DNA of 48,562 bases from Candidatus Zixiibacteriota bacterium (GTDB lineage Bacteria; Zixibacteria; MSB-5A5; CAIYYT01). Shown one piece after another: positions 19,681-43,272 of this stretch. The stretch spans positions 1-48,562 of the forward strand of contig JADYYF010000064.1 in NCBI GenBank assembly GCA_020853795.1, given 5' to 3'. Under the pieces are notes generated by a model. That model did not search any database. It was not told the origin of the DNA and was given only the letters and a program-made list of their open reading frames with translations. Position 1 is the first letter of the stretch, and each line of letters begins with the position of its first letter. Position numbers and translations under genes: made by a program.

Positions 19681-19690
19681 AGATACGAAT

Positions 19691-19719
19691 AGTGTACCGA
19701 ACAATGCCCGAACGGACAA
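19691..19719 (-). promoter_or_regulatory. lexA promoter with LexA box in the spacer
   Basis: On the minus strand: TTGTCC (19714-19719), a 17-base spacer and TACACT (19691-19696). The spacer holds GTTCGGGCATTGTTCG (19698-19713), a GTTC-N7-GTTC direct repeat in the ideal place for autorepression. Confidence 0.75.
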
Positions 19720-19739
19720 GGTCTGGTTATCCACAAGTA

Positions 19740-19755
19740 TTGCCGGCAACGGCAG
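19740..19755. promoter_or_regulatory. Partial copy of the TTGCC-N6-GGCAA operator
   Basis: TTGCCGGCAACGGCAG matches the palindrome at 18965-18980 in both half-sites except the last base. It lies upstream of the lexA -35. Confidence 0.4.
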
Positions 19756-19813
19756 TTCTTTCAGACTTTTCAAGCAACTGTATTTAATCCTACGCTTACA
19801 CCGTGGTTCGATT

Positions 19814-21836: not shown

Positions 21837-24800
21837 TCAACTCAATGAATCCACCCATTTCCTGAACTCGTCATCTTGCCCATTATCTTTGGGGTCAAGT
21901 GACCTCAGACCATCCCGTATTTCGTTCTTAATTGATTGATCGGCCGATGAGTTATAGTAATTCTGGATATCGACGAAGTTCCTCGAGAAATCACCCTCGC
22001 TGAGTTTCATCTTCGTAAGTAATCTGAACGCTAACTTGATTGCGTTGACGTCATTAGATTTTACTACCAACTCATCCAGGCAGATATCGGCGAGTTTTTC
22101 CTTTTCCTGCTTGTTGAGTTGATCAACTGCATAGCAGATAAATTCTAGAGCGAACACCTGATACTTGCTGGCACTTGGCAAAGTATCGATCCAATCGAAA
22201 ATCCCTTTCACGATACTGCGCGTATTCTTCTTCGTAAGAAAATCCGCCTTAGTTGCTGCATCATAGCCGATCTTCTGGTTATTTGAATCGGGCAATTTCA
22301 AATGCGTGAGCAGCTGGTCAGCGAACTGATCTATGAGCTCCGGCTTATCAGCGCAGCGCAATCCAATGCAAGCTTCGTAGCATCCCGGCTTCTGCGCCGC
22401 AGAGTACCCAGCTGCTACCGCTAAGAGTTGCGATACTATCTTCTCTCTATCGGGGATCTCGTACTTTAACGCTTTGAAGCGACGGAATGCTTCAGTCGGG
22501 TTAGATGCAAGAATCTTCAGTAGCCACTCGGTTTTCTTCTGATCGGTTAGGCCATCATAGAACACATTGAACATCTCAGGTTCGGCAACGCTTCGCTGCT
22601 CAAGCGGAGACGTGAATGGTCCAGCGTTCAGGAGCACCTGAACGCCGCCGACTTCAGTACCACAGGACCGAATCGCTTCTGGCGTAGCTGATGTACAGAA
22701 TTGCTGGATGAAACTGGCGATTGAGGGTTTCTTGGCTTCCTCAACCATTGCGTGAAGATCGAACAACAAGGCAACAGCCTGGATTCGACGCGGCCAATCC
22801 GCAAACGTGTTGGCGTTAGTGATTATCGAATCTGTGAGTTGAGAAAGGGGTGTGTCCTTGGTTGCAAGAGAACCAAAGGTCGACAGCGCCTTTCGAATGG
22901 CAAAGAATATGACGTTTCTGTCTCTTTCAACTTCTGGTGAAAGCGGGATCGGGGCCTTCAAATTGAGAAGCTCGATGAATTTTGTAACGGACAGAGTGAA
23001 GTGCTTGGCATCAAACAAGCTCTTACTGAAGGAGAGAATCATTTGCCATCGCTCTGGTATCTGCAGCTCTCCGAGTTGTCCCTCTGACTTGGGGAGACCT
23101 GCAAGATCGCGGTCTGAAATTGACTGAATGAATGCCTCGACCAATGGCTTGGAAAAAGCGGCAGACTGCGCTTTGTCGGAGGCCATGAAAAGCCGGAGTG
23201 TTTTGACATCTGAGGCAAATTGGCTAGCAAGCACTTTTTGCACCCTAGCTTGTAGTTGATCGATTAATGTGGGTACTTCCGCAAAGAGTTCGAAAGCCTC
23301 GGCAATGAAGAGGGACTTCGTTTTTCGAAGATTCTCCTCAGGAGCGATAACTTCCAACCTTTGCACCCAGCGCTCTACAACTGACTGCTGAAACTGTGAA
23401 TGATGTGAGAGCATGTTCGCATAGAGGTGTCTAGGCGAAATCGTATCGATGCGCTCTTGAAACTCCGCTGACGTGAGAGTTGAGTGAAATTGGGCGTAAC
23501 AAGATTGGTTTAGCGTTATTTTCCGGTCAGTGAGTATTTGAAGCAATCCGTTCAAAAAGTGCGCTTTCCCTGTGGGGTTGGTTATATTCTCAAAGTGGGT
23601 CTTTATGGCGTAGCTCAAAGCCTCTATATCATTGCCGAGCTGGTCCATCCCTTGCGCTTGCTCCTTGGCCTTGGCGATCTCGTTGTCCTCCAGCATTTCG
23701 AAAAGCCGGTCAATTCCTGGAAACTTCTTTTCCTGGTCTGAACGCCTTAACGCGTAGTATGTCCGAAGATTTGTCATTCGCACTTCGGATTTAACTTCAC
23801 TCACAAACGCAAGAAACTGCTTCGCCGTATTTTCGTCTATTCCAACAGAATTCAGAGATTCTAGCTGATGTTCTTCAAGTGAGGTTGCCTTCAGATTCCT
23901 GAGTTCTGCCATGACATTCGGGTATAGGTGATTCAATAGAAGATAGAGGCAGATTTCTAAGCGATTCTTCTTTGCAAATTCTGGCTCAAAATCTTTGCCC
24001 TCTCCTTCTCGCTCACGAATCAACAGGAAGTTCGATACTAGGATATTGACAAACTGAATAATTTGTCTAGGATTGTCGCGAAACGCTTTGGTTACAAGCC
24101 ACGCGATGCCTTCATCGTTTAAGTCATCGATGCCAGTGGACTTCAAACAGGATCGAGCGTAGGATTCCAATTCGCTGGAAATAAATTCGGGGATCCAGAG
24201 TACTGTATTGAAGAATTTCCGCAAGAATTCATCCGGGTCAAAGGCGCGGCTAGCCATGGCTGAGGTCCCAGCTGAGTTCTTGCCATAAACAGCAGTAATG
24301 TGTGCGCGAATGGCTTTATCGTCGCAGGGGATCAAGAACACAATCCCTTTGTTGGGTAACGTTAGATCCTTCGGTTCGAGAAACGTCTTAATGGTCGTAA
24401 GAGTTTCAAGTGCCTTCTCATGGGTGACTCGATCAAGGTTGTCAAAGATAATGAGCGTACGACTGGACTTGGATGCGACAATTATGCGTGCAAACTCGTC
24501 CTCAAATTCGTGAGGGTCTTGCAGTTTCTCGTTCGAGAACGTAGTTGTCTCGGTTCCTAAAATTTGAGTGAAGAGATTCAATAGCCAAACAATCAAGCCC
24601 CCACCAAAGATTGTGCCGATTGCGCTCGCTACGATGCCGGGTAAGCCCAGTTTCGTACCCACGATTCCGACTGCAGCTAGGACAACAAAAAGAACGATAG
24701 AGACGATAACTAACTGAGCCGTCTTTTCCTTGTTCAGTCGAAGCCGACCTTCATGATTGCGGTTTACACTGTGTTCGAGGCGGTCATTAAGCTGAAAATT

Positions 24801-25142
24801 GGTCTCCAGTGGGTTTCCCGGAGCTGACCTTAGCTGGCGCACTAGCTCTTTCAGAAACGATCTCCGCAGCGAGTCGCCTTCATGCTTCCAAACGTCGAAA
24901 AGGACAACGGGAATCGAACGATTTTTCAGATTGGCGGCAATCATGTTTGCGATAGTGCTTTTTCCTGACCCCCATTTGCCGAACAGACCTATAGTGAAGG
25001 GCGTTGGACAATTCTCCACCACTTGGACTAGGGTTGCAGCAATGTCGCAGTGCCCGAATAGCCCCCGTCCACCGGATTCGACACCTTGGAGAGGTTGGTC
25101 CTTAAGAAGTTGAAACGATTTCTGAGTAGAAGTATCCCGCAT
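21837..25142 (-). CDS. KAP family P-loop NTPase
   Basis: A 1101-residue KAP NTPase. The Walker A motif is FGKWGSGKST (54-63). Two membrane helices are inserted before Walker B (~143-163 and ~166-194: LVIVSIVLFVVLAAVGIVG; GIVASAIGTIFGGGLIVWLL), the hallmark of the family. Walker B is TLIIFDNLDR (229-238), followed by FLIPCDD and a conserved DNPRQIIQFVN sensor region (~350-360). The remaining ~700 residues are helical and repeat-like, perhaps a scaffold or sensor. KAP proteins are membrane-attached NTPases found in defence islands and include plasmid F PifA, which excludes phage T7. It is third in an operon after a LexA-like repressor and a DUF2188 protein, so induction by damage or infection is plausible. 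Confidence 0.88.
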   Translation of the reverse strand: MRDTSTQKSFQLLKDQPLQGVESGGRGLFGHCDIAATLVQVVENCPTPFTIGLFGKWGSGKSTIANMIAANLKNRSIPVVLFDVWKHEGDSLRRSFLKELVRQLRSAPGNPLETNFQLNDRLEHSVNRNHEGRLRLNKEKTAQLVIVSIVLFVVLAAVGIVGTKLGLPGIVASAIGTIFGGGLIVWLLNLFTQILGTETTTFSNEKLQDPHEFEDEFARIIVASKSSRTLIIFDNLDRVTHEKALETLTTIKTFLEPKDLTLPNKGIVFLIPCDDKAIRAHITAVYGKNSAGTSAMASRAFDPDEFLRKFFNTVLWIPEFISSELESYARSCLKSTGIDDLNDEGIAWLVTKAFRDNPRQIIQFVNILVSNFLLIREREGEGKDFEPEFAKKNRLEICLYLLLNHLYPNVMAELRNLKATSLEEHQLESLNSVGIDENTAKQFLAFVSEVKSEVRMTNLRTYYALRRSDQEKKFPGIDRLFEMLEDNEIAKAKEQAQGMDQLGNDIEALSYAIKTHFENITNPTGKAHFLNGLLQILTDRKITLNQSCYAQFHSTLTSAEFQERIDTISPRHLYANMLSHHSQFQQSVVERWVQRLEVIAPEENLRKTKSLFIAEAFELFAEVPTLIDQLQARVQKVLASQFASDVKTLRLFMASDKAQSAAFSKPLVEAFIQSISDRDLAGLPKSEGQLGELQIPERWQMILSFSKSLFDAKHFTLSVTKFIELLNLKAPIPLSPEVERDRNVIFFAIRKALSTFGSLATKDTPLSQLTDSIITNANTFADWPRRIQAVALLFDLHAMVEEAKKPSIASFIQQFCTSATPEAIRSCGTEVGGVQVLLNAGPFTSPLEQRSVAEPEMFNVFYDGLTDQKKTEWLLKILASNPTEAFRRFKALKYEIPDREKIVSQLLAVAAGYSAAQKPGCYEACIGLRCADKPELIDQFADQLLTHLKLPDSNNQKIGYDAATKADFLTKKNTRSIVKGIFDWIDTLPSASKYQVFALEFICYAVDQLNKQEKEKLADICLDELVVKSNDVNAIKLAFRLLTKMKLSEGDFSRNFVDIQNYYNSSADQSIKNEIRDGLRSLDPKDNGQDDEFRKWVDSLS

Positions 25143-25166
25143 ATGTCCTCAAAGTTAATTGATCAA

Positions 25167-25409
25167 TCAGTGCTTCTTATCCTTCGGCGGGTTGGGATCG
25201 TTGGCTGGTGCAACGGTGTCGCTGTCGCGAATCGGACCCGAGGGCTTGTGAATCCGCACTTCTCCACCTCCGCTGTTAGCTGCAAACTGTTTCGCCATTT
25301 TCTCTGCCACTGATTGCGTGTCAGCGGTCGCGCTGGCTCGGTCTGCGCCCTCGCGCTTGACCTTCCATTGGCCAGACGCCTTGTTCTTAGTCACGTGATA
25401 GTTGGACAT
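25167..25409 (-). CDS. DUF2188 protein
   Basis: An 80-residue protein from ATG 25409 (an in-frame ATG 15 bases upstream is nearly as good). It matches DUF2188: YHVTKNKASGQWKVKREGAD, then RAS, then a helix with MAKQFAANSGGGEVRIHK, and the ending GPIRDSDTVAP. DUF2188 proteins are small and widespread, with unknown function. It sits between the LexA-like repressor (11-base gap) and the KAP NTPase (24-base gap) on the same strand, so it is most likely part of the KAP module, perhaps as its regulator or partner. Confidence 0.8.
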   Translation of the reverse strand: MSNYHVTKNKASGQWKVKREGADRASATADTQSVAEKMAKQFAANSGGGEVRIHKPSGPIRDSDTVAPANDPNPPKDKKH

Positions 25410-25420
25410 TGACTTGTGCC

Positions 25421-26056
25421 TCATAGTTTAAGTGTTGAATTATCGATTACCCTTTGCACGACGCCCAGCACTTGGAAATCTTCAGTCAGGATAATGGGCT
25501 TGTGCTTCGGATTTGATGAACGTGGTTTCAAGATGACGGCCTGCGGCTGGCGGTGGAACTCCTTGATCGTGGCCTCGCCGTCGATCAGGGCCACGACAAT
25601 GTCGCCATTGCTGGCGGTCTGCTGTTGCCGAACCAGGACAAGATTCGAGTCGTGGATTCCCGCTTTGTTCATTGAGTCGCCGGTGGCTCGCAGAAGGAAG
25701 TAGCGGTGGGGCCGTTTCGCCAGTTGAACCGACACCGGAATCATTGCATCAATATTCTCCTCAGCCAGAACCGGAGCGCCGCATGGCGCGGAACCGACAA
25801 GGGGGACGTTGACCGTCTGTGTATGTGATTCGGTCTCCCGTAAGTCCTTTAGAAGGCGAATCTGGCCGCGGCCATTGCGGATAATGAACCCTTTGGACTC
25901 GAGTTTTTCGAGGATGTAGGCCGCCGCCCTAGGGGACTGATACTTCAACTGCTTCTGGAGATCTCTGACCGAGGGGGCCTGCCCCCCGTGAACGATTTGG
26001 TTTCTAAGGAACCGGAGAGCCTCCAGCTCCTTGTCTGTCAGGACGTGGGTATCCAT
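25421..26056 (-). CDS. Second LexA-like (S24) repressor
   Basis: A 211-residue LexA-type autorepressor, divergent from the one at 19.1 kb. It has a winged helix (LTDKELEALRFLRNQIVHGG; PSVRDLQKQLKYQSPRAAAY), a cleavage site C92-G93 in SAPCGAPV (Cys-Gly, common in cyanobacterial- and phage-type LexA) and a dyad of S128 in GDSMNKAG with K165 in ATIKEF. It heads the operon with DUF2188 and KAP. Its promoter is a consensus one carrying an 8-base direct repeat between -35 and -10, unlike the GTTC boxes of the other LexA, so the two regulons look separate. Its likely role is to keep the KAP module silent until cleavage. Confidence 0.88.
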   Translation of the reverse strand: MDTHVLTDKELEALRFLRNQIVHGGQAPSVRDLQKQLKYQSPRAAAYILEKLESKGFIIRNGRGQIRLLKDLRETESHTQTVNVPLVGSAPCGAPVLAEENIDAMIPVSVQLAKRPHRYFLLRATGDSMNKAGIHDSNLVLVRQQQTASNGDIVVALIDGEATIKEFHRQPQAVILKPRSSNPKHKPIILTEDFQVLGVVQRVIDNSTLKL

Positions 26057-26068
26057 AATATGCCGGTA

Positions 26069-26097
26069 TTGTATAAGAGCGTATAAGAACTGTCAAG
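26069..26097 (-). promoter_or_regulatory. Promoter and direct-repeat operator of the LexA-like/KAP operon
   Basis: On the minus strand: TTGACA (26092-26097), a 17-base spacer and TACAAT (26069-26074). The spacer and -10 hold TCTTATAC-GC-TCTTATAC (26072-26089), a direct repeat placed to block polymerase. Confidence 0.8.
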
Positions 26098-26129
26098 TAG
26101 AAAAGACCACCTACCCACTCTTTCCGGCT

Positions 26130-27821
26130 TCAACCCTGCAAATGACTTAGGAACGATTCAACTGCGGTGGCAAATTCAGGGTGGGCCGATTTAATAGCTG
26201 GCCAATCGTTCTCACCCAACACCGATAGGAGATGACGCCAATTCTCCGAACTCTGCTTTGTGGTTCCAAGCGCAGATTCTAGAGTGTCTGGGAAAGCGTG
26301 ATGTCTTACTTGGGATTTCTCAATGACAGATACGATCTTCTGCGCATCAGCAGCGGAACATTGGTTGTTCCTATCAGTATCGAATATGACAAAGTAGTCA
26401 ATCCTGAGTGCTTTGCACAACTTGATGTAGTCAGGAATCTGGGTTTTGCTATCGCAGTCAATAACGGATATGCTTCTTGCGTCAAATTCAATCCCCTTCT
26501 TCTCTAGCGCTACGAGAAACACCGCCTGATCATCCTGGCCTTCTGTGAGTAACGCATGACTAGAAAACAATAGTTCTTCGTTACCTTTGCGTTTGATTTT
26601 TTGCTTCATCTTATCGAAGTCAAGATTCTCGCTTGCGCCAACCTGAAATGCATGCGTGCAGATCGACGACTTTGTCAGCCGAATAATAGACTTGTAATCA
26701 TTTATATCTACGAACTCCTCCGAGTGGGTAGCTAAGATGACGGTATTACCGCGGTTGGCGAGCTTCTTCAATGTCCGATGACAGTAGCGGCGAAGATGTG
26801 GATGTAGGTAAATCTCGGGTTCCTCAATGATGTAGATTGCTTGATCTCGGTTTGTCATCTGAGCGAGAGTGCTTAATGCTGCCAGACGAAAAAGGCTTAA
26901 GTACCCCTTTCCTAGCTTAGAAACTTCTATAGGCTGCAACTGAGACGATTCTTTGATCTCCAGTCTAGTGATGGTGTCAAATATCTCGTCATGAGAAGGT
27001 AGTCCGAGACTCAATTTTGTAGCCTTCGGATCGTTTAAGCCCAAATACTGACTGATATTTTGCGCCAAAGCCTCTTCTATTTCGTTCAATTTCGACGTTC
27101 TTAGAACATCTACCAACCGTTCTGCCGCCCGTTTGTAAGCTTCCTTTGAGGATATTGACTTCTCCTGGTCGCCGTCTTTGTACCGGTACATGCTTGCATC
27201 ACTTTGAAAGTCATCTCTGTACAATTGAAATAGTCGACCCAGTGGCCCAAACCCGGATACCTTGAAAAAAGACTCGAGGTGCTCAATGTCTAGGAAGAAG
27301 ATCTGGCCGACTTTCGACAAGTAGGCTTTTGCAGGAATAGGTTTGCGTTGGTTATCAATATCTTCGTCTTCATCGTTTTTTTTCTGCTTGTAGATGTGAT
27401 CACTGTCCATGAGGGGCATTTCAGTCTTGCCCTTTGCGTTGCGACCGAAGCAGTAATGATCAACATGAATTCGCCCCTTTTCCTGTCCTGACGCATACGA
27501 CTTTGCTTCCAAGAAAAAGCCGTCGATGAAGCACTTTTGTTGGTAGACGTTGCGGATTTCTATAGGAGTCGCAAGCGTAAGCTTAATTTGAATTGTCTTT
27601 GACTGGTCTTGATCGTGAAAGTCAGTGACTTGAATATCATAATTATAGAACTTGCCGCTACGGACCCCAATCACTAAAGCAAGGGCATCCAGCACATTGC
27701 TCTTGCCGGCATTATTCGCGCCAATCAAAGCAAACAGACCAGTTTGATCCGCGAATTCTATGGCAATCCCTGGGTCGCCCATGGATCGGAAGTTTGTAAT
27801 TTCGAGTTTCAATATGGCCAT
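26130..27821 (-). CDS. OLD family ATPase-TOPRIM nuclease
   Basis: A 563-residue overcoming-lysogenization-defect protein. The ABC-type ATPase half opens with ILKLEITNFRSMGDPGIAIE and Walker A GANNAGKS (34-41). The signature region (GKGYLSLFRLAALSTLAQM) and Walker B (IYIIEEPEIYLHPHLRR) with a following His switch (ILATHSEEF) are clear. The C-terminal TOPRIM domain shows ALLTEGQDDQAVFL with the metal-binding Glu, then YFVIFDTDRNN with the DxD. OLD proteins are ATP-regulated DNA nickases or nucleases in phage defence. No UvrD-like helicase follows, so it is not a Gabija pair. It is the last gene of the seven-gene operon that begins with AbiEi. Confidence 0.9.
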   Translation of the reverse strand: MAILKLEITNFRSMGDPGIAIEFADQTGLFALIGANNAGKSNVLDALALVIGVRSGKFYNYDIQVTDFHDQDQSKTIQIKLTLATPIEIRNVYQQKCFIDGFFLEAKSYASGQEKGRIHVDHYCFGRNAKGKTEMPLMDSDHIYKQKKNDEDEDIDNQRKPIPAKAYLSKVGQIFFLDIEHLESFFKVSGFGPLGRLFQLYRDDFQSDASMYRYKDGDQEKSISSKEAYKRAAERLVDVLRTSKLNEIEEALAQNISQYLGLNDPKATKLSLGLPSHDEIFDTITRLEIKESSQLQPIEVSKLGKGYLSLFRLAALSTLAQMTNRDQAIYIIEEPEIYLHPHLRRYCHRTLKKLANRGNTVILATHSEEFVDINDYKSIIRLTKSSICTHAFQVGASENLDFDKMKQKIKRKGNEELLFSSHALLTEGQDDQAVFLVALEKKGIEFDARSISVIDCDSKTQIPDYIKLCKALRIDYFVIFDTDRNNQCSAADAQKIVSVIEKSQVRHHAFPDTLESALGTTKQSSENWRHLLSVLGENDWPAIKSAHPEFATAVESFLSHLQG

Positions 27822-27838
27822 AGGAGTTGAATATCACT

Positions 27839-28351
27839 CTATAAATTGACTGGGCCCTGCTGTTCACCTGGATACGGCCCGATTGAAGTGCCTTCGTCTA
27901 TCAGGTCCTGAATGGTGCCCTCTGGCTTCTTGGGCAACGCATACGCGCTATGTAAATACGACAAGGACGTGCCGGTCGCAACGGCGTTTATGTAATGACC
28001 GTCAATGTCCTTGTTCATGGTCAAGCGCCAACTGTGCCCTGACTGATCCGTGAAGTAAAACTTAACTTCTTTGTTGAAATGAAAGTCGGAGGGGTTGTGT
28101 CTGTGGTCGGTGTATTCGAAGACCAAGTAAGTTGTACCTGTCGGCGTGACCTCTCCGATGCGTCCCTGGCTCCAGACAGTAGCGACTATCAACTGGCAAT
28201 TGTAAGCGCTTCGCGTTCTCTGCTGTCGTTCATCCTGCAGAAATGCCGGCGCATTGTCATTCTCATAATATCGATAACGCCCGTGTTGAACAGTCGCCGC
28301 GGCTGAACTGAAGAAAGTGGTATTGCCAAACGGACGAGGGTGATTTGCCAT
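27839..28351 (-). CDS. Hypothetical protein (170 residues) of the defence operon
   Basis: It begins two bases after the stop of the 75-residue gene, with GGAAGGTG as ribosome site, and ends 17 bases before the OLD gene. The sequence is beta-rich with many aromatic and polar residues (GTTYLVFEYTDHRH; EVKFYFTDQSGHSWRLTM) and a His/Asn-rich middle, compatible with a small binding domain. It has no membrane segment and no catalytic motif I recognise. Tight packing between the methylase and OLD genes argues for a role in this operon, for instance as an adaptor or specificity partner of OLD. Confidence 0.6.
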   Translation of the reverse strand: MANHPRPFGNTTFFSSAAATVQHGRYRYYENDNAPAFLQDERQQRTRSAYNCQLIVATVWSQGRIGEVTPTGTTYLVFEYTDHRHNPSDFHFNKEVKFYFTDQSGHSWRLTMNKDIDGHYINAVATGTSLSYLHSAYALPKKPEGTIQDLIDEGTSIGPYPGEQQGPVNL

Positions 28352-28353
28352 GA

Positions 28354-28581
28354 CTACACCTTCCGAGTGCTAGAATCAGGATCAGGCTCGATTGGACTTG
28401 CTGCCCTCCTCCAGCCCGCTCTTATCATGTCAGCGAGAACAATGTATGAGATGTAAGGGCGATTGTGCCTCAATGTCGAGGAATACTTGTAATCGGCAAC
28501 GAAGTCGTCAAAAACGGACCACAATCCGCTCGGGAGGGTACTTCGAGCTTGTTGGAGTTTGGGCGATTCATTCAAACTCAT
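28354..28581 (-). CDS. Small hypothetical protein (75 residues) of the defence operon
   Basis: A short gene with GAAGAAGGG before its ATG, 16 bases after the methylase stop and two bases before the next gene. The centre (GLWSVFDDFVADYKYSSTLR; YISYIVLADMIRAGWRR) is helical and looks like a small globular protein; the ends are charged. No motif recognised. The ribosome site and packing support expression. It may be a regulator of the neighbouring methylase or helicase. Confidence 0.55.
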   Translation of the reverse strand: MSLNESPKLQQARSTLPSGLWSVFDDFVADYKYSSTLRHNRPYISYIVLADMIRAGWRRAASPIEPDPDSSTRKV

Positions 28582-28597
28582 CTGGGATACCCTTCTT

Positions 28598-31500
28598 CTA
28601 TAAAGACGCGTCAGTCTTTAACTCTTCCGGTTTGATTCCGTAAATCGCGAAAATCTGAGTGTCAATCTGTTTACGCAGAGCTGCAACCTCCGGAATCTCG
28701 GCCGATTCGGAACATCGGGACTTTAAGATCAAGTGTTGTAGGTCACGAACCATTTGAGTTACTTTGTCATGGTCCGCTTGTTGGGGCTTTTTTATTGGAA
28801 CAGACTTTAGGAAAGAGATCGGGTACTTTAGTGAGCCTTTAGGAATTCTGGCGGAGTAGAACTTTTTCCTGTGAAACCAGTTAACAAGGGATGAGTTGAG
28901 CACCGCCGTCAAGTATTCGATGGAGATGTTCTTCTTTGGGTATGGTCTGACCGCGTGAACAGCGACTAGAATGCCAAAACCTTCTCTGTCGATACTCGCA
29001 GTTAATTTCTTTGCAACCCCCCTAACGATAATCTTCTCACAACCAAACAATTTCTTCGTCTCTTGGCTCAAAGGAACTGAGTCGACATCCAAGTAAGGAT
29101 TAGTGAATTTCTTCTTAAAGAGATTTATGGGCTTTCCAAAAAGGAAATTGTACGGTTCCACGTGACTATTAGTAACAATGCGAATATAGCCAGGCCGCTC
29201 TCCTTCCCTGATGAACTTGGACATAGCCCAATACTCGAAACCCATTATACCAGTTCTTACATCCGCCAACTCAACCAACTCTTCACAACCCATGAGGAGC
29301 CGCGACAACACCGGGGCTACATCGTCACTTATGTGAATCTCAAATGCATTAGACTTACCACGAGTCAATGAATCTTGCTGGACCTCTGTAAACTTGATTC
29401 TATCGAGAATCGCCAAATCATCTTCACCAAGTAGTGCGATCTTGACGCAGTGCTCCGGCATTGGCAGTGACTTCTGAACCACGGTGACAATCGGTGACAC
29501 AAGTACATTCTCGAAGACTTTCCTGCAATCAGCAAGATCGATTAGCTTCAAGATCGTAGTGTCTGTCTTTAGCAGGTCCCTCAATTTGGAGCCATAATCT
29601 GCGATGACGTATTTATTCGAAGTGATGAAGCAAAGAGTTCCGTTTTGCTTCATAAGGTCTAGCGCTCGTTTGAAGAAGAGGATGTAAATATCAAAAGAAC
29701 CGTGAGCAATCGGGTAAACAGACCTGTATAAAGTTAGCAACTCCTTCATTTCGTGCGAGTTCACATACGGCGGATTGGCTATCACAATGTCAAAACCATC
29801 CTTTTCGTCGAACACTTCCATGAAGTTTAGTTTCCATAGAAAGAACGGACGCACCCCTTTGGGATCGTGTATTGTTTTTAGCAAGTCATTCAAAGCTCCT
29901 TCTTTGGCGAGCTTTCCTGCCCACTGTTCCCAGTGCTTTTCGCGGTCCCCCTTCTTGAGAAGCTCCCTTTCTCGTTCCTTCGCCTTCCGCAAGGTCTTGA
30001 CACGCTGCAACTCCTCATTGACTGCCCGACGCACAAACCAGTCAATGAGATCGTTGATACGACTCCGGAGGGTAGCTTTCGATTTGTCATCGCTTGTCGA
30101 GAAGTACTCCCGCTTCTGCCACCTCAATTGATCTTTCTTTTGTACCTGGTCCTTGTCGTCAAAGAGAGTTTCGTGGCCGTCGCCATTCAAGCCTTCGTAG
30201 AAACGAACTCCTTCGAATTGCTCCAGAAGACTGTTCCCCTGCATTATCTTGTAATCCAAGTTTGGTAGCGGCTCGATATCCTCAAGATCATAATCTACTA
30301 CAAGTGACAGCCACAGTCGTAGCTTTGCAATATCGACCGCGCCGGGATCAATATCGACGCCGTAAATGCAATCTTGAATGGCGGTTTTTTTCATGCGGTA
30401 ATCAGTTAACCTTGGGCGAAGGCTCTGCCGTGCCCGCACGATCTCTTGGAGCATACCGACAAGGAATGCACCGGAACCGCAAGCAGGATCCAGCACTCGA
30501 ATTTCGGCCAGCAACTTGTCAATGCGTTCCCTATTGTCGCGGATATCTGGTGCCAGTTCGTCGACAGACAGCACCGGATTGCGTATAAAGCCGCGAATGG
30601 TCTCATATTCAAGCGCTGATCCGTCGACCAGGTAACTTATGAGACTCTCCTGGCACATGTAGTGAACGATTTCTCGGGGTGTGTAATAAGTGCCATGTCC
30701 CTTTCGAAGATTTTCCGCCAACAAATTCTCGAATACTTTACCGAGCATCTCTGGGTCAACGGCTACTTCGCGCTCGAGAGGCTCGTCCTCTTTAACTGTG
30801 AAGTTGAAGCGATCAAAGACCTCGAGGATATCTCCAAATATGCCGTTCTCGAGATGAATGGTAGTTCTTTCCCAATCATAGTCCGGCTCAAACAGCCCGC
30901 CGTTCAAAAACGGAATCTTGGATTCGAAGTGTTGCGAATAGTTTCGGTCAGCCTGCCGGCTGCGAGGGTTATTTAGCGTGTCGTAGAAAAGGATCTCCAA
31001 GTAGTCATTGTAAAAGTTTTCATTCTTCTCGACACATCGACTGAACAGGGTACGTAAGAAGCCCCTGTCACCATCCCCCCAAGTCTTGCCTTTGGGAACC
31101 CCGAGCCAGCCCTTCTTTTGAAGAAAATAGAGGAATACAATTTGTCCTAGTAGCTTCTTGGCAAAGTTCTCTATATCGAGGTTGTTTCGCGTGGCCACTA
31201 TTACAAAGCCCTTGTTCTTATTCAGGCTAGCCGACAGCTTGTCGAACAGGTTTCGATACTGCTTGAAGAATTCCTTAGTGACAGGGTCAACCGCGAACGC
31301 ATTCTCCAAATCTGTCAGCTTGGGCTCTCCATTGGCAAGAATTGGTAGAAGTCTGCTTTGTGCCGTGTGGCTGTTCTCATTGGCTCCGACAAGGAAAGAG
31401 TACCGCTTCGCTGGTGACAGCTCCTCTACAACCTTGTTCCGGTCAGCATCGTATTTGTAGGCCATTCGGACAAACGAGAAGCGCCAATCTTGATCACCTG

Positions 31501-31849
31501 GAGATACAAACGCTACTAGAGCTGCATCTTTAGGCTGTCCACTTTTGAGGTACTTGGCGACGAAATTCCTCTGGGCGGATCGAGCGCGCTCGATACTCCT
31601 ATCCGCATTCAGGTTGACTATCAGTATGTCAATCTTGTTTCCCTCAACATCTTTGTACTTGCCGAATCTATCGTAGGAGTTTATGTATCGCCTAAACTCA
31701 GGGAATATCTCTTGTGATTCTAGTGGCTTTGCGAAAGATGCCGGTTCCAGACCTACCAGCAAATTGCCAATAAATCTCGCAAATTGGTCCCGGCTGAACG
31801 GTTGTTCAAATGTGTCTCGTATGATCTTTTGTGCCGCTTCTCGCTGCAT
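28598..31849 (-). CDS. Eco57I-type N6-adenine DNA methyltransferase/restriction-modification protein
   Basis: A ~1083-residue protein. SAM-binding motif I is VLDPACGSGAFLVGML (~residue 453), and the catalytic motif IV is FDIVIANPPYVNSHE (~686), the NPPY form of N6-adenine enzymes. Upstream of motif I lies the usual helical block ending GHGTYYTPREIVHYMC. The C-terminal ~350 residues should hold target recognition. The N-terminal ~200 residues (YDRFGKYKDVEGNKIDILIV) are of unknown fold; a nuclease there is possible but I see no sure PD-(D/E)xK set. ATG 31849 is chosen over a TTG 12 bases upstream because GGGGA lies six bases before it. It starts one base after the stop of the PLD-helicase gene, so the two are co-made. 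Confidence 0.88.
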   Translation of the reverse strand: MQREAAQKIIRDTFEQPFSRDQFARFIGNLLVGLEPASFAKPLESQEIFPEFRRYINSYDRFGKYKDVEGNKIDILIVNLNADRSIERARSAQRNFVAKYLKSGQPKDAALVAFVSPGDQDWRFSFVRMAYKYDADRNKVVEELSPAKRYSFLVGANENSHTAQSRLLPILANGEPKLTDLENAFAVDPVTKEFFKQYRNLFDKLSASLNKNKGFVIVATRNNLDIENFAKKLLGQIVFLYFLQKKGWLGVPKGKTWGDGDRGFLRTLFSRCVEKNENFYNDYLEILFYDTLNNPRSRQADRNYSQHFESKIPFLNGGLFEPDYDWERTTIHLENGIFGDILEVFDRFNFTVKEDEPLEREVAVDPEMLGKVFENLLAENLRKGHGTYYTPREIVHYMCQESLISYLVDGSALEYETIRGFIRNPVLSVDELAPDIRDNRERIDKLLAEIRVLDPACGSGAFLVGMLQEIVRARQSLRPRLTDYRMKKTAIQDCIYGVDIDPGAVDIAKLRLWLSLVVDYDLEDIEPLPNLDYKIMQGNSLLEQFEGVRFYEGLNGDGHETLFDDKDQVQKKDQLRWQKREYFSTSDDKSKATLRSRINDLIDWFVRRAVNEELQRVKTLRKAKERERELLKKGDREKHWEQWAGKLAKEGALNDLLKTIHDPKGVRPFFLWKLNFMEVFDEKDGFDIVIANPPYVNSHEMKELLTLYRSVYPIAHGSFDIYILFFKRALDLMKQNGTLCFITSNKYVIADYGSKLRDLLKTDTTILKLIDLADCRKVFENVLVSPIVTVVQKSLPMPEHCVKIALLGEDDLAILDRIKFTEVQQDSLTRGKSNAFEIHISDDVAPVLSRLLMGCEELVELADVRTGIMGFEYWAMSKFIREGERPGYIRIVTNSHVEPYNFLFGKPINLFKKKFTNPYLDVDSVPLSQETKKLFGCEKIIVRGVAKKLTASIDREGFGILVAVHAVRPYPKKNISIEYLTAVLNSSLVNWFHRKKFYSARIPKGSLKYPISFLKSVPIKKPQQADHDKVTQMVRDLQHLILKSRCSESAEIPEVAALRKQIDTQIFAIYGIKPEELKTDASL

Positions 31850-31850
31850 A

Positions 31851-34800
31851 TCAGTCCCCAATTAGATATTCGGAAAGGATGACTTCTCGAGGTCCACTAA
31901 CTTTGGCCGACGATTCGGCCAAGTGGCTTTCGAGGAATTCAGCCGGTATATTCTTCTGAAGTACTGCAAGCATCTTGAGCGGATTGACTCCCTGTTTTAC
32001 CATGGAAGTCATCTCCTTCAAGGCTGTCTTGGCTGTCTGCCGGGGCAATCCGCCTTCTTCAAGCTGGATGATCACCTTGCGAACATACTCCTCTTGCTCA
32101 TCCGTGAACTGGCGGTAGTCCTTTACCGCTTTCAGCATCTTGAGCAACTGCGTAGCGGTATCTCTGCCGCCCTTGAGCTTGGTATCAGGCATGTCGTCTG
32201 TGGTCGCAAAGGTGAATGCCTCTTTGTTCTTATCCAACAATTCGTAGAAGTCAGAACCCAGCTTTTCGCGCTTCACGGACGAGGTGACTTCGAGTGTAGC
32301 TGCAGCCGCTATGAAGTCCAGTTCAACAGGACCGCCTTGACCCGCTAGGTAGAATTTCTGAATCCTGCCCTTGCGGAAGTATGTAAGCAGGTGATTCCGT
32401 TTGTCTGAATCATGCCTGGCTGTCCGCGCCTTCTTGGGGAGCCGTTTGATCTGCTCGAACAGGTCCGGATCGTTGTCCCGGATATCACGAATGAGTTGGA
32501 GGTATTTGAGCCCGCTGTCTTCTTCACCGTCTTCTCCGGTGATTGTCTTTCGGGATACCAGTCGATCAAATAGCTCGTGGTGTTCAATGGCCTCTCCGTC
32601 TGTCAGCAAGCGAGCATCCGCTCCCAAGAGAGTAATGAATGCCTGAATCTTTGCTTCGGCGGCTTCTTTGAGCTTGATCTGGTCATTCGATTGCTTCGTC
32701 GGGAAGAAGTTGAACGTGTATATCTTGTCAAACTTTGTGTCTACGCGGTTAATGCGGCCAACACGCTGCATAAGCCGGGTCGGATTCCATGGGATATCGT
32801 AGTTGATGACGACATTAGCCTGGTGCAGGTTTACACCCTCTGAAAGCACTTCAGTCGCCACCAAAATGCGGTACTCGTTCTTCGGATGTCGGGCTTTTGC
32901 ATCGAAATTCTGAATCACTTTCTCTCGGATGTTCGCACTTGATGAACCAGTATAGTTGAGCACGTGGTGACCAAGCTTTTCCGTAAGGTGCTTTGACAGA
33001 TAATCCGCAGTCTCCTTTGATTCCGTAAAGACGATAAGCTTGCTGTCCTTGAGCACCTTTCGACTGGTGAGCATATCCAAGAACTTGAGCAATTTCGGAT
33101 CACGTTGCACCGATTGCCAGAGGTCGCGGATCTTTATGAGTAGGGCAAGGTCGTTTTCGAGGTCCTGACGAAATTCTTTCTTGAATCCTTTGGCCTCGTA
33201 CTTCTCTGCCTTGCCTTCTTCTATCAATTCCAGAACGCTCTCTTCGTCGCCCGAGCCTAGAAGGTCGAATATCTTGTTCGCGTAGTCTTTGCTGATGTAG
33301 ACCGCGCCTTTGTCATAATGCTCCAGGAAGAGTTCATACGACGCAATGAAACGGTTAATCGTGTTGCGAAATGCGAAGAAGCTACTCTCCAGGCGCTTCA
33401 CCAAGAGAATCTTCATGAATCGGCCGAGGTTTTGTTGGGCTAGTCGCTCCGGTTGTTCGATCTCTCCTTTGTAATACAAGAGAGGCATGTATCGGGCATA
33501 TTTGAACTTCAATGCAATCAGCTTGATTGTCTCGCTGAAGACCCTGTCTTCATTGTCATCGAGCTCATAGTAGGCAGGCTCAGGATCGACAACCTCTGGA
33601 AAGCGAAGTCCCTGTTTCTTGAGATCGTCCGGGAAAAAAGACTCAATTTCCCTGCGCGTTCTTCGTACCATCAAGTACTTGAGTACTTTGTCACGGATTT
33701 CCCGCGCGTTTTCCTTGGTAACTTGTATAAACTTTTCGAGATCACGCTGGCGATCCAGACCCTTCAATTTCCCTTCGAGCTTTGCAAACAACTTTTCCAA
33801 GTCCGCCGTGCCTGGGATCGTACTCTTCCGGGAATTCTGGAAGAGCTTGATCTGGCTCAATATGTCCTTCGGCGAATTGTTGAACGGCGTGGCAGTTACT
33901 AGAATGACCCGCTTGCCGCGGCAGACCTGCGCCAGCTTTTCGTAAGTGATGTTGGTTTCAGTGCGGAACCGGTGCGCTTCGTCGACAATAATGTTCTCAT
34001 AGAATTCGGTGCCGTGTTTGATGATCGAATCGAGTTTGCCCAGTGATTCAAATTTCGCATATACCCTGAAGTCCCTAAACACGTTTGGCCAAGACCCTGG
34101 GTTTTCTTCATCAAGCAATACTGGCGGCGCAAGAACGAGCGTACGGCCATCTAACTGATTAGCAAGCATCGCGGCCATGTATGTCTTCCCAAGCCCCACA
34201 ACATCCGAAATAAACACACCGCCGTATTCATCAAGAATTTTCTTCGCGTTTAGTACCGCCTGTTCCTGGTATTCCAAGCGTTTGAACTCGACGGGAACAT
34301 ACTTGAAGAATACTTCTTCGGATCGAGATATTTCGTCCTTGTAGTATTCATAGAGGAATTTCAAATACAGTTGGTAGGGTGTAATCGTGTCATTGAGCCA
34401 GGTCTTGGTTTGAATCGTCTCTATGTACTTGTCACTGACGTCAACTGCATCGGCCCAGAGTCTGTCGAATTGATCTTTCGCAAATGCGTAGTCGGATGGA
34501 TTCTTCAATTCGACGTTGAATTCCAGATTATCAACAAGCCCAGCGTGCGTGAAGTTGCTGGAACCTGTTATGACGCGACCTACATCCCGATCGTCTTCTT
34601 GAAATGTCATGATATAGAGCTTAGCGTGGATGTTGGCGGAAGGGTAAGCACGAATCTCCAACTTGCCACTTCGCAGCCACTCAAGGAATTTGTGAACGCC
34701 GGCTTCAACCTCTCGTTTGTCCTGCGAATTGCCCAACTCTTCCGTGACAGCTTTCCCGAATTCATCTTGAGTCTCGGCATGTGAAAGCGGTAACGACTCT

Positions 34801-35039
34801 TGCTCAGCCCGGTCGATGAGCTCTTTTGTGTCTCGCCCCGTACCGATGCCTATGAGTATTCGAATCTTCTCCGTCTTCTCGAGAGACTTATAGAGCGCAT
34901 AGAAACCGCTGGTGAAGAAATATCCCACCAAAACGTCGAAAAGCCGTGTGTCCTTAATGAGTACTCGGAATCGGTCAAGTAGACGCCGGGCTTCTTCGTT
35001 GGTGATGAATGTAAGATCTGTTGCTGGTTTATTGGTCAT
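31851..35039 (-). CDS. Phospholipase D-like nuclease fused to SNF2-type helicase
   Basis: A 1062-residue fusion. Residues ~30-190 form a PLD nuclease domain: LVGYFFTSGFYALYKSLE, then the catalytic HxK in IHAKLYIMTF, then the GSSNFTHAGL block. The helicase covers ~260-800: motif I SDVVGLGKTYMAAM, motif II IIVDEAHRFR, motif III LVTATPFNN, and the C-terminal half with ATEVLSEGVNLHQANVVINY and QRVGRINRV. Enzymes of this build translocate on DNA and cut it. With the adjacent methylase it can make an ATP-dependent restriction-modification pair in which methylation marks self. The C-terminal ~250 residues are helical and of unknown role. Confidence 0.9.
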   Translation of the reverse strand: MTNKPATDLTFITNEEARRLLDRFRVLIKDTRLFDVLVGYFFTSGFYALYKSLEKTEKIRILIGIGTGRDTKELIDRAEQESLPLSHAETQDEFGKAVTEELGNSQDKREVEAGVHKFLEWLRSGKLEIRAYPSANIHAKLYIMTFQEDDRDVGRVITGSSNFTHAGLVDNLEFNVELKNPSDYAFAKDQFDRLWADAVDVSDKYIETIQTKTWLNDTITPYQLYLKFLYEYYKDEISRSEEVFFKYVPVEFKRLEYQEQAVLNAKKILDEYGGVFISDVVGLGKTYMAAMLANQLDGRTLVLAPPVLLDEENPGSWPNVFRDFRVYAKFESLGKLDSIIKHGTEFYENIIVDEAHRFRTETNITYEKLAQVCRGKRVILVTATPFNNSPKDILSQIKLFQNSRKSTIPGTADLEKLFAKLEGKLKGLDRQRDLEKFIQVTKENAREIRDKVLKYLMVRRTRREIESFFPDDLKKQGLRFPEVVDPEPAYYELDDNEDRVFSETIKLIALKFKYARYMPLLYYKGEIEQPERLAQQNLGRFMKILLVKRLESSFFAFRNTINRFIASYELFLEHYDKGAVYISKDYANKIFDLLGSGDEESVLELIEEGKAEKYEAKGFKKEFRQDLENDLALLIKIRDLWQSVQRDPKLLKFLDMLTSRKVLKDSKLIVFTESKETADYLSKHLTEKLGHHVLNYTGSSSANIREKVIQNFDAKARHPKNEYRILVATEVLSEGVNLHQANVVINYDIPWNPTRLMQRVGRINRVDTKFDKIYTFNFFPTKQSNDQIKLKEAAEAKIQAFITLLGADARLLTDGEAIEHHELFDRLVSRKTITGEDGEEDSGLKYLQLIRDIRDNDPDLFEQIKRLPKKARTARHDSDKRNHLLTYFRKGRIQKFYLAGQGGPVELDFIAAAATLEVTSSVKREKLGSDFYELLDKNKEAFTFATTDDMPDTKLKGGRDTATQLLKMLKAVKDYRQFTDEQEEYVRKVIIQLEEGGLPRQTAKTALKEMTSMVKQGVNPLKMLAVLQKNIPAEFLESHLAESSAKVSGPREVILSEYLIGD

Positions 35040-35071
35040 AGTTTTGAAGTGGTTAGCTCGTGTATTAGGAA

Positions 35072-35770
35072 TTATACGCCCTCGTTTTCGATCTTCAATT
35101 TCAGTAGAAAGACTGTATCGGTCTTAAGGTTCGCACGTGCCCAAGCCTTCTGGTCATCAGCAAGCAACTCACCGATTCCTTCGAGAATTTTCTTGTTGCT
35201 GAGTTTCTCCAAGGCCGTGACGCACTTTTCGAGTAGTTCCTTGAATGGCATCTTGGCCCGCTGTTCGACGATTGTCTTGTTGATCGGCCAGTTGTTATGC
35301 AGGAAGAACCAGACATCGAAAATGTCTCGGCTCGTTTTGCCAATCCGTTCATACATCGCCATGAGCTTATGCGCGAACATATCTTCCTTGATCATCACGA
35401 GCATCGAGACACCGAGATAGGTCTTGAGTTCAAACTTCGAGCCGAAAGACCGGCGATTGATTTCCACTTTGATGTTGTGCGCATGCTCCTGGTACGACAA
35501 GAGAAAGAAAATACTGAATCTCTTCCGCGTTGCCTGCTTTATCACTCCGTACTTCTTGAGAACCTTCTCGATGCGCTCGAAGACGATGTCCTCCTTCGAA
35601 TCATTCAGCAAGTCGAAGTCGAGGTCGACCGAGAATCTGCTGAGGCCGTAGAACATGAACGCAGCGGTGCCTCCCTTGAAGCCCAGGAACGGTGCGATTG
35701 CTGAATCGGAGTACACGTCCTTGAGAAGCTGAAGCAAAACATTCTTGTGTACTGGCGTATTGAGAGTCAT
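35072..35770 (-). CDS. abiEii: AbiEii/AbiGii family nucleotidyltransferase toxin
   Basis: A 232-residue nucleotidyltransferase of the type IV toxin-antitoxin AbiE system. The fold signature is GGTAAFMFYG (33-42) followed by RFSVDLDFDLL (45-55), the GG...S-D-D core of DNA polymerase beta-like transferases. Later blocks include VMIKEDMFAHKLMAM and RDIFDVWFFL (the conserved D-x-x-D-x-x-F region). AbiEii toxins stop growth after phage infection; the MenT relatives do so by modifying tRNA. It overlaps AbiEi by four bases (ATGA) and lies 32 bases before the PLD-helicase gene, so in this island AbiE is not free-standing but leads the restriction operon. Confidence 0.9.
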   Translation of the reverse strand: MTLNTPVHKNVLLQLLKDVYSDSAIAPFLGFKGGTAAFMFYGLSRFSVDLDFDLLNDSKEDIVFERIEKVLKKYGVIKQATRKRFSIFFLLSYQEHAHNIKVEINRRSFGSKFELKTYLGVSMLVMIKEDMFAHKLMAMYERIGKTSRDIFDVWFFLHNNWPINKTIVEQRAKMPFKELLEKCVTALEKLSNKKILEGIGELLADDQKAWARANLKTDTVFLLKLKIENEGV

Positions 35771-36360
35771 AAACGGTTACTTTCGGCTCTAAAGTGCTTA
35801 TGCAAGGCATTCACTTGTTTTGCCATGCGCTTGTTGTCATACAGAGGCAAAAGCTCGAAGACCTTTTCCCAGTTAAGCGGAGTGAGGTTGTCGAAATGGT
35901 AGTCGGTGTTCACATAGAGCGTGTCAAGCATGGCCCTCTCCGGTGTTGCGATCGAGCGCTCACCAACATTGTCCACACCTACAGAATTAGACAGGATTAC
36001 ATCCTTTACCTTCCTGAATTGATAAGTCTGCCCGTCGCAGACGATCTCGCGGGTTAAGTAGGTCGCCACGAAGATGCGGTTGTAGAATTGGAATGTGACA
36101 CCGGCTTTCGCAAGGACGGTTTCGAAGCTGACGTACGACGGCGTGAAAATGCGGCTCGCCAGCTCCAAACGGTCGTAGTCTCGGTCTTTAGCATAGAGAC
36201 CTTGTCGAATTCTGTGCAGGTCACCCGCCTGGACGTAGTACTTGAGCCTTGCTCTTGCTGCATTGGTGCCCGGGTCGCCCCATAGCAAAGCGATGTCCTT
36301 AATCGAAAAGACGGTCTTTTTCGACCGGAGCAGAATTTTGATGTAATCGCCTCTTATCAT
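35767..36360 (-). CDS. abiEi: AbiEi family antitoxin/transcriptional regulator
   Basis: A 197-residue AbiEi protein. The N-terminal winged helix (VFSIKDIALLWGDPGTNAAR; ARLKYYVQAGDLHRIRQGLY) binds DNA in the family. The C-terminal domain (PERAMLDTLYVNTDYHFD) is the antitoxin part. AbiEi counteracts AbiEii without direct contact and represses its own promoter by binding inverted repeats. Such an inverted repeat overlaps the promoter upstream (36391-36406). As first gene it would set expression of all seven genes down to OLD at 26130. Confidence 0.88.
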   Translation of the reverse strand: MIRGDYIKILLRSKKTVFSIKDIALLWGDPGTNAARARLKYYVQAGDLHRIRQGLYAKDRDYDRLELASRIFTPSYVSFETVLAKAGVTFQFYNRIFVATYLTREIVCDGQTYQFRKVKDVILSNSVGVDNVGERSIATPERAMLDTLYVNTDYHFDNLTPLNWEKVFELLPLYDNKRMAKQVNALHKHFRAESNRL

Positions 36361-36390
36361 ATCTATGGACTATAAAGGGGTTCCAATCTC

Positions 36391-36433
36391 ACTATCAGTT
36401 CATAGTATACACCCCATATATATTGCCTGTCAA
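36391..36433 (-). promoter_or_regulatory. Promoter and inverted-repeat operator of the AbiE/restriction operon
   Basis: On the minus strand: TTGACA (36428-36433), an 18-base spacer and TATACT (36404-36409). The inverted repeat ACTAT-CAGTTC-ATAGT (36391-36406) overlaps the -10, as expected for AbiEi autoregulation. Confidence 0.75.
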
Positions 36434-36472
36434 GCGCAATTCTCGTGTGGCCAGAGCCTGACTCCCCCTAAA

Positions 36473-36937
36473 CTACTCTCGCTGAGCGACCAGCCAGATC
36501 ACCGCCGTGCCAATGCCGAGCCATAACAAACCATCGGTTTGCTCCTTTTTCTTGACCCGGCTGAAGACGTTTTGGTGAAGCCATGCAAGCGCCTTTCCTG
36601 GGTCCTCATAGTATGGCAAGTACTTCAGATCCTTGAGGAAACCTTGGAGCTTCGCACTACTGTCGAGTACCACAGGAAGAATTGGCTTGTCTGCACCTTT
36701 AGCAATTCCTATTTCCTGTGGCACCCATTCTGATGATTGAGAGTTCCTACTCCAAAGCAGAAGGAACAAATCACAGTTCTTGATCGCTCTTATGATCTCT
36801 GCACTGAGGCCCGAGCCCGGCAGCACCGAGTACTCGGCGAGAAAGACATGAGAGCCTGACTGCTCAAGCAGCACTTTAGTTTGGTTCGCCAGTGGGAGAT
36901 CGCGAGTTGAGTAGCTGATGAAAGTTGAAAAGGCCAT
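36473..36937 (-). CDS. TIR domain protein with C-terminal membrane helix
   Basis: A 154-residue protein. Residues 2-~125 form a TIR domain: AFSTFISYSTRDLPLA at the start, CDLFLLLWSRNS in the core, and SSEWVPQEIGIAKG with the candidate catalytic Glu75. Bacterial TIR domains with this Glu cleave NAD+ or make cyclic ADP-ribose-type signals in phage defence. Residues ~136-151 (LLWLGIGTAVIWLVAQ) form one membrane helix, so the TIR faces the cytoplasm from the inner membrane. It ends a three-gene unit behind a GIY-YIG protein (eight-base gap). There is no Thoeris ThsA partner nearby. Confidence 0.88.
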   Translation of the reverse strand: MAFSTFISYSTRDLPLANQTKVLLEQSGSHVFLAEYSVLPGSGLSAEIIRAIKNCDLFLLLWSRNSQSSEWVPQEIGIAKGADKPILPVVLDSSAKLQGFLKDLKYLPYYEDPGKALAWLHQNVFSRVKKKEQTDGLLWLGIGTAVIWLVAQRE

Positions 36938-36945
36938 ATGTTCTC

Positions 36946-37233
36946 CTATCCGACTCGCTTATTGCAGACTGGCTGGAGTTCAGTAATCAGTTCGCGTTCC
37001 CGGATACTTGGGTCACCACTTGTTACTTCGGCCACCCAGTGCGTCGGATTTTCACGGGTGATGCAGGGATTGTCACCGTTCAGGTGATCGAGTAATCTTT
37101 GGCGAATGTCCCCTTTGCCCACGTATACCCACACACCTTGTCGGAAAAGGCCATAGACGCCGATCTGGTTGGAGTTGAGGGCTTCGATATTCGCCCTTGC
37201 GAAAAGTCCGGGCTGTTGTTGTAGAAATGGCAT
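36946..37233 (-). CDS. GIY-YIG domain protein
   Basis: A 95-residue single-domain GIY-YIG protein from ATG 37233, which has GAGGT seven bases upstream (an in-frame ATG 12 bases earlier is less well placed). The motif reads IGVYGLFRQGVWVYVGKG: GVY for GIY and YVG for YIG. It is followed by the Arg in DIRQRLLDHL, the metal-binding Glu in RERELITEL and the closing Asn in PVCNKR. Members range from UvrC-type nucleases to homing endonucleases. A small stand-alone copy directly before a TIR gene suggests the pair acts together, the GIY-YIG protein as DNA-cutting or nucleic-acid-sensing partner; that is inference. Confidence 0.82.
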   Translation of the reverse strand: MPFLQQQPGLFARANIEALNSNQIGVYGLFRQGVWVYVGKGDIRQRLLDHLNGDNPCITRENPTHWVAEVTSGDPSIRERELITELQPVCNKRVG

Positions 37234-37264
37234 TAGATACCTCACTTTGTTAGTAGATTGGTTT

Positions 37265-37294
37265 TGCAGACGGGTGGATTCCCACCCGCCTGCA
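37265..37294. repeat. Perfect hairpin between zinc-ribbon and GIY-YIG genes
   Basis: TGCAG-A-CGGGTGG pairs with CCACCCG-C-CTGCA around ATTC, with one A/C mismatch. No T tract follows on the minus strand. It may attenuate or process the transcript so that the first gene is made in excess. Confidence 0.6.
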
Positions 37295-37308
37295 GAAGTG
37301 TAGTGCGC

Positions 37309-37476
37309 TTAGGATGTGCACTTGCCTTCCTTTTCTTTCGATTTGCACTCGTTACAGAGTTCACCGCTGGTTGGCTTAGAGTAACTGGTATCCACGTCGG
37401 TTCCAGTCGGATAGTTCGAACAATTGCGACACCAATGCCAGGTGTCTCTTCCTTTTCTGCGTTTGTAGATCGCCAT
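37309..37476 (-). CDS. Small zinc-ribbon protein (55 residues)
   Basis: A 56-codon frame starting at ATG 37476 with AAGGGA upstream. It reads MAIYKRRKGRDTWHWCRNCS, then NYPTGTD, then SGELCNECKSKEKEGKC. Two CxxC pairs (CRNC and CNEC), 27 residues apart, form a zinc ribbon, and the N-terminus is strongly basic, as in nucleic-acid-binding ribbons. The conserved look of TWHWCRNCSNYP and SGELCNECK supports a real protein. It is the first gene of the unit with the GIY-YIG and TIR proteins, and a repressor-type operator lies ~130 bases upstream. Confidence 0.75.
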   Translation of the reverse strand: MAIYKRRKGRDTWHWCRNCSNYPTGTDVDTSYSKPTSGELCNECKSKEKEGKCTS

Positions 37477-43146: not shown

Positions 43147-43198
43147 CGCGCTCCCAGCAAACGCTGCATCTGCAAGTCGTTGGGGGACAATATCTGCT

Positions 43199-43272
43199 GC
43201 CCCCGTAGCTCAGTCGGATAGAGCATCTGCCTTCTAAGCAGAGGGTAACAGGTTCGAATCCTGTCGGGGGTG
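43199..43272 (+). tRNA. tRNA-Arg (anticodon TCT), right copy and island boundary
   Basis: Same cloverleaf as 10254-10327 with T stem ACAGG/CCTGT and discriminator G, anticodon loop CTTCTAA. No encoded CCA and no clear promoter directly upstream. The first half probably came with the element and the second half from the host, if crossover was in the anticodon region. Confidence 0.95.
43214..43247 (+). repeat. Putative attR core (34-base identity block)
   Basis: Identical to 10269-10302; marks the right junction of the island. Confidence 0.7.

Follow-up and report, generated by a model that had tools for sequence, protein, structure and literature searches.

A putative restriction–modification-like core with exchangeable, probably abortive modules in a seven-gene cassette of a Zixibacteria mobile element

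Whether seven closely packed defence-type genes in a Candidatus Zixiibacteriota bacterium form one dedicated system or a composite of separable parts is the question raised by contig JADYYF010000064.1 (GenBank assembly GCA_020853795.1), the full 48,562 bp of which are referred to here as the window. A first-pass annotation, made from the sequence alone, had described a seven-gene minus-strand operon and assigned families to its products. The open reading frame (ORF) listing contained all seven ORFs in a minus-strand block at 26130–36360, with neighbours separated by 1–32 bp or by a short overlap, and Pfam and PADLOC profiles agreed with the families assigned. From 5′ to 3′, the genes encode AbiEi, AbiEii, a PLD-SNF2 protein, an Eco57I/TaqI_C methylase, two small proteins (sm75 and sm170), and an OLD-family protein; families and gene order thus bear out the proposal that a restriction-like helicase–methylase pair shares an operon with abortive-type modules. 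What the comparisons did not support was the combination of seven as a fixed unit. We put at about one half (roughly 52%) the probability that the operon is an ATP-dependent restriction–modification (RM)-like system with exchangeable abortive back-up modules, carried as a composite cassette on a serine-recombinase element.

The first gene of the putative core (31851–35039, minus strand) encodes a 1062-aa protein in which a PLD (HKD-type) nuclease is fused to an SNF2/superfamily 2 (SF2) helicase, with the Pfam domains PLDc_2, SNF2, and Helicase_C. Intact nuclease and helicase motifs lie within this one protein: H138, K140, N162, Walker A K285/T286, D353/E354 of the DEAH box, and R759/R762 of motif VI were invariant in 80 homologues, and E173 was kept in 79 of them. 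The second core gene (28598–31849, minus strand) encodes an N6-adenine methylase of the Eco57I/TaqI_C type (PF07669, 8e-39; PF12950, 1e-12), the best PADLOC match of which was REase_MTase_IIG (PDLC03596, 604 bits). Its DPACGSGAF and NPPY motifs were conserved in 55 homologues; the protein also has a conserved N-terminal region to which no role is assigned. The mechanical ORF starts at a TTG (31861), but the homologues begin with MQREAA or MQKEAA, so the conserved ATG at 31849 is the more probable start codon of the methylase, leaving 1 bp between the two core genes. Domains and motifs together suggest that the pair constitutes an ATP-dependent, RM-like restriction core.

To see how this pair is distributed, one genome per species was scanned; at least 562 relatives were recovered by the helicase pattern, and the best 80, which span many phyla, were fetched. 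The helicase–methylase pair was met in more than 80 loci of many phyla at 53%–81% identity, and a methylase homologue lay within the locus at 66 of 82 helicase loci, many of them on cut contigs. Four further genomes of the same class carried a helicase 66%–81% identical to that of the window, with the methylase directly after it in each. At one locus (L021, genome G031) the helicase was intact, and the methylase frame ended early (913 aa) and was followed by a separate 144-aa methylase-like frame, so this methylase appears to be split or frameshifted. A Sulfitobacter plasmid match (51% over 38%) was merely a broken helicase remnant and was not used.

The neighbours of the core varied widely. 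AbiE, Schlafen-AlbA, Bro-N, Fic, MNT-HepT, DarTG, RhuM, ApeA-HEPN, OLD, UvrD, and PHP-ABC companions were all found at core loci. In Pfam terms, SLFN_AlbA_2 occurred in 9 proteins and Bro-N in 7, and further companions carried MNT/HepT, Fic, KilA-N, DUF3800, AbiEii with DUF6922, ApeA-HEPN, DarT with a macrodomain, RhuM, OLD, UvrD, AAA_13, and PD-(D/E)XK domains. Companion groups were defined from BLAST clusters and Pfam domains, using fragmentary contigs of metagenome-assembled genomes; on the helicase tree (80 sequences, 57 loci scored), the companion state changed at least 36 times. Individual genomes carried sm75 followed by a PHP-like/ABC protein (G073), a 166-aa protein together with a UvrD helicase (G031), or a second PLD protein (G025). 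Judging from these neighbourhoods, the helicase–methylase pair is the common core and the added genes are exchangeable modules. An MNT-HepT pair lay exactly between helicase and methylase at two loci (L063, 13179–13801; L089, 13191–13834), and a DarT-DarG-like pair (DarT plus macrodomain) directly behind the methylase at another (L037, 8124–9828).

The first-pass annotation had seen the full combination as a possible new system, to be given up if the AbiE pair, the core, and OLD assorted freely and the small genes were not conserved. This is largely what emerged: the core was met with many other companions or with none, and the nearest AbiE homologues and the OLD homologues of the class stand alone. 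Both the neighbourhoods and the helicase tree led us to reject a fixed seven-gene system. It is accordingly quite improbable that the operon is a dedicated defence system in which all the genes, sm75 and sm170 among them, are required; the tight gene order and the recurrence of sm75 after the methylase in G073 speak for it, whereas no other locus with all seven genes was found, sm170 has no detected relative, and the relatives carry other modules or none.

The AbiE pair occupies the leading position. AbiEi (35767–36360, minus strand; 197 aa) is an antitoxin-like winged-helix regulator that matched the PADLOC AbiEi profile (PDLC02255, 206 bits, 1e-61), while its NCBIfam TAA_AbiEi match (3e-7) falls below the cut-off. 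AbiEii (35072–35770, minus strand; 232 aa) is a nucleotidyltransferase toxin (PF08843, 8e-17; PADLOC AbiEii, 256 bits, 1e-76) with KGGTA, DLDFD, and RDIFD motifs. As in type IV AbiE toxin–antitoxin systems, the two genes adjoin with the antitoxin first, here with a 4-bp overlap and the nucleotidyltransferase motifs in place; unlike those systems, a restriction core follows within 32 bp, the length of the AbiEii–helicase junction. Class-wide, 41 AbiEii genes were counted in 131 genomes, and of the 5 class genomes that hold the helicase, 2 have AbiEii upstream of it at a distance of no more than 35 bp, far above random placement. Beside the core, AbiEii was found at three further loci: upstream, as in the window, at L022, where OLD lies downstream; between helicase and methylase, with a DUF6922 gene, at L042; and downstream of the core at L057. 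Gene pairs at L028 and L094, suspected of being AbiE by their size, were judged not to be AbiE from their N-termini.

The L022 locus, from genome G062, repeats the design of the window. An AbiEi-AbiEii pair stands ahead of the core and ends 8 bp before the helicase, and the core is followed by a 66-aa protein and then by an OLD-like ATPase. Its helicase is 76% identical to that of the window, whereas the AbiE proteins share only 27%–31% identity and OLD can be aligned over 50 residues only. Because the helicases are so much closer than the AbiE proteins, separate recruitment of non-orthologous modules is favoured, although the likeness may also have arisen through replacement of an ancestral AbiE pair.

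A genome of the same class but another family, G060, bears on how the block was acquired. There, a LexA gene 93% identical to that at window positions 25421–26056 lies directly beside a TIR gene 83% identical to that at 36473–36937, with no seven-gene block between them, and the element continues with GIY-YIG-like, ImmA-like, helix-turn-helix, and further genes in the order of the window. At the DNA level, window positions 25166–26097 aligned with 716–1647 of locus L108 of G060, and 36473–37476 with 1687–2694; the alignment ends at 26097 and 36473 thus lie 39 bp apart in L108. Because the alignment stops at 26097 and resumes at 36473, bases 26098–36472 are present or absent as a unit, with ends good to about 40 bp. 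The seven-gene block therefore behaves as one inserted cassette in a mobile element, and the LexA and TIR genes belong to the element rather than to the operon.

This arrangement also bears on whether the operon could be a product of crowding in a defence island, where unrelated modules stand side by side, read-through mimics an operon, and nothing is functionally coupled. The companions do turn over fast, and genes for a KAP NTPase and a TIR protein lie in the window as well. However, the genes share one strand with gaps of no more than 32 bp and are absent as one block from the related element, and the order AbiE, core, small protein, OLD recurs with non-orthologous parts at L022. We regard mere crowding as an improbable account of the locus.

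In another alternative, AbiE has no part in defence: it would serve as an addiction module for the stability of the cassette or the element, and the core would simply be read from the AbiE promoter. G060 carries homologues of AbiEi (71% identical) and AbiEii (72%) without helicase or methylase, some 11 kb away from the empty site, indicating that AbiE can stand alone, and the promoter upstream of this pair is partly conserved: the -35, GGTGTA.A, and ATGAAC blocks are shared with the window. It also fits this account that the operon lies inside an element with a recombinase, RuvC, and relaxation and coupling proteins. Against it, a different AbiE pair occupies the same place at L022, and in the relatives the corresponding positions are filled by other abortive modules, favouring selection for the combination. 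We regard an addiction role outside defence as unlikely too.

A sigma-70-like promoter (TTGACA-18-TATACT, 36404–36433, minus strand) lies upstream of AbiEi and scores 11/12 against the consensus; the promoter claimed for the operon was thus recovered, and it is the one that is partly conserved before the 71%–72% identical AbiE pair. Co-transcription of the whole operon from this single promoter is likely, and AbiEi probably stands in the controller position. Autoregulation by AbiEi has been described, and tRNA modification has been proposed for relatives of AbiEii (PMC7725324).

In the reading that we prefer, an RM-like system with exchangeable abortive modules, the methylase would mark an adenine in the target site of the host, and the PLD-SNF2 protein, to judge from its domains and motifs, would translocate on and cleave unmarked DNA. 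Exchangeable abortive modules would surround this core, with the AbiE pair before it and the OLD ATPase-nuclease after it. AbiEi would repress the sole upstream promoter, controlling the whole operon together with its own toxin. If a phage blocked restriction or upset expression, AbiEii, a tRNA-directed nucleotidyltransferase in relatives, and OLD would act as a second-line shutdown; cells that lost the cassette would likewise be penalised by the AbiE pair. That the core restricts, that AbiEi regulates the operon, and that the modules act abortively are all inferred from the genes; by analogy with the systems described in PMC3710099 and PMC12839542, the back-up role of AbiEii and OLD is plausible. 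Only tentatively do we suggest a more far-reaching version, in which AbiEi is the master repressor of the entire restriction operon, its loss or engagement at infection frees restriction and two abortive effectors together, and the design recurs (in the window and at L022) because non-orthologous parts were brought together on more than one occasion.

Several points weigh against the preferred reading. Defence genes cluster in islands, which weakens the argument from AbiEii adjacency, and the finding that all three AbiEii genes at the fetched loci lie within a same-strand chain (chance p = 0.012) is merely suggestive. Loci scored as core only can have unrecognised or cut-off companions. The promoter region holds no demonstrable AbiEi operator, only a chance-level repeat: the best candidate for the AbiEi-type inverted repeat that had been claimed, CTATGAACT...AGTCCATAG, matches at 8/9, about 0.5 such repeats are expected by chance per 120 bases (an estimate), and a repeat finder did not list it. 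In addition, a weaker internal promoter-like site (35098–35071, 10/12) directly upstream of the helicase could separate the core from AbiE; the count of promoter-like sites in the region equals the shuffle mean.

Behind the core, 16 bp separate the methylase from sm75, 2 bp separate sm75 from sm170, and 17 bp separate sm170 from OLD. The OLD gene (26130–27821, minus strand) encodes an ATPase with a TOPRIM nuclease (AAA_15, 9e-28; OLD-like TOPRIM, 7e-15) whose closest solved structure is 6p74 of the OLD family (4e-32), and its GANNAGKS, EEPE, TEG, and DTD motifs are present. Its PADLOC scores were 133 bits for Old and 118 bits for GajA. An ABC-type ATPase joined to a TOPRIM domain with acidic residues is shared with OLD and with GajA of Gabija, whereas the operon has no UvrD-like GajB neighbour and LexA comes next, which is the single-gene OLD form.

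The two small genes gave no match in Pfam, PADLOC, or NCBIfam, and in both, of the six possible frames, codon use points to the annotated one. The 75-aa sm75 (28354–28581, minus strand) has one clear relative, 62%–66% identical and directly after the methylase in G073, as in the window; none was found in plasmids. Its predicted model is helical at modest confidence (predicted local distance difference test score, pLDDT, 68) and gave no fold match. For the 170-aa orphan sm170 (27839–28351, minus strand), searches of 98 genomes and of plasmids, phages, and viral contigs gave no credible relative, and the predicted model was unusable (pLDDT 38). A weak match in G087 was taken as chance, for it lies inside a 1236-aa frame, and PDB sequence matches were not credible. 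Co-occurrence of the small proteins with the core, proposed earlier as a check, was seen for sm75 in G073 and not for sm170 in the collections searched.

How does the operon relate to named systems? A PLD-SF2 restriction component and an N6-adenine methylase in one operon are shared with Type I/III-like RM systems, whose restriction component the HKD-SF2 helicase resembles (PMC10853773); here, however, there are two core genes, the methylase is IIG-like and bears TaqI_C, restriction and methylation are read from the genes, and no separate specificity subunit was seen. Type-2 BREX-related (BR) systems likewise have an HKD-Swi2/Snf2 helicase and an N6 methylase, and in BREX and BR loci TOPRIM-OLD, HEPN, and Schlafen proteins are described as effectors with a back-up role (PMC12839542). 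Their DUF499 ATPase and DUF3780 were not found in the operon or in ten other scanned window proteins, nor are they among the companion families listed for the relatives. The operon could still be a reduced member of the Type-2 BR, DISARM, or BREX systems, since the helicase resembles DrmD, BrxH, and PbeA and the methylase resembles PglX and DrmMI, but all of these fall far below the curated NCBIfam cut-offs where such exist. PglZ and BrxC were absent from the operon and the ten other proteins, no DUF1998 (DrmB), which defines DISARM together with DrmA, was found among the scanned proteins, in line with the earlier statement that BREX and DISARM core genes are lacking, and none of these families is among the listed companions of relatives. 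Such a membership is very improbable, and DISARM, BREX, BR, and Gabija were rejected because their defining genes were not found. In the libraries searched (a PADLOC copy of 2023 and open-licence papers), the two-gene core has no named system; it may have received a name since 2023.

Type I RM and BREX-related loci have already been reported with back-up abortive modules beside the core. In the sections of PMC3710099 that we drew on, PrrC, RhuM, and Fic sit in RM operons and, with HEPN, act as embedded suicide effectors and a second line; the RM core is a different one, and those sections do not name an AbiE pair placed first with its own regulator. An RM-like core with exchangeable abortive modules thus follows a known logic, and AbiE in the leading place is the new variant feature. 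The same back-up logic is seen around another widespread RM-like core, here led by an AbiE pair at the probable regulatory position. Control of the whole operon by AbiEi, if true, would connect two layers of defence that tend to be investigated separately. Nature has exchanged toxin modules on this one core many times, which allows anti-restriction back-up to be tested against addiction.

Further observations concern the surrounding element. Two tRNA-Arg (TCT) genes, at 10254–10327 and 43198–43273, border a region of reduced G+C content (about 10–43 kb) that holds a serine recombinase (19874–21697), RuvC, two Replic_Relax proteins, and TraG/D C-terminal-like and TrwB-like proteins; by its gene content, this region is an integrated mobile element. 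The sequence CTTGACA occurs at both block ends (26090–26097 and 36427–36434), where it coincides with the -35 boxes of the LexA and AbiE promoters, and the empty junction in G060 has CTTGACT once. It is possibly a trace of insertion, or simply two consensus -35 boxes. The TIR protein at 36473–36937 is short. A KAP-family NTPase of 1101 aa (21837–25142) is distantly like QatA (69 bits; cut-off 600). The element encodes two LexA-family (S24) repressors, at 25421–26056 and 19075–19773, the former preceded by a strong promoter of its own that lies immediately behind the operon.

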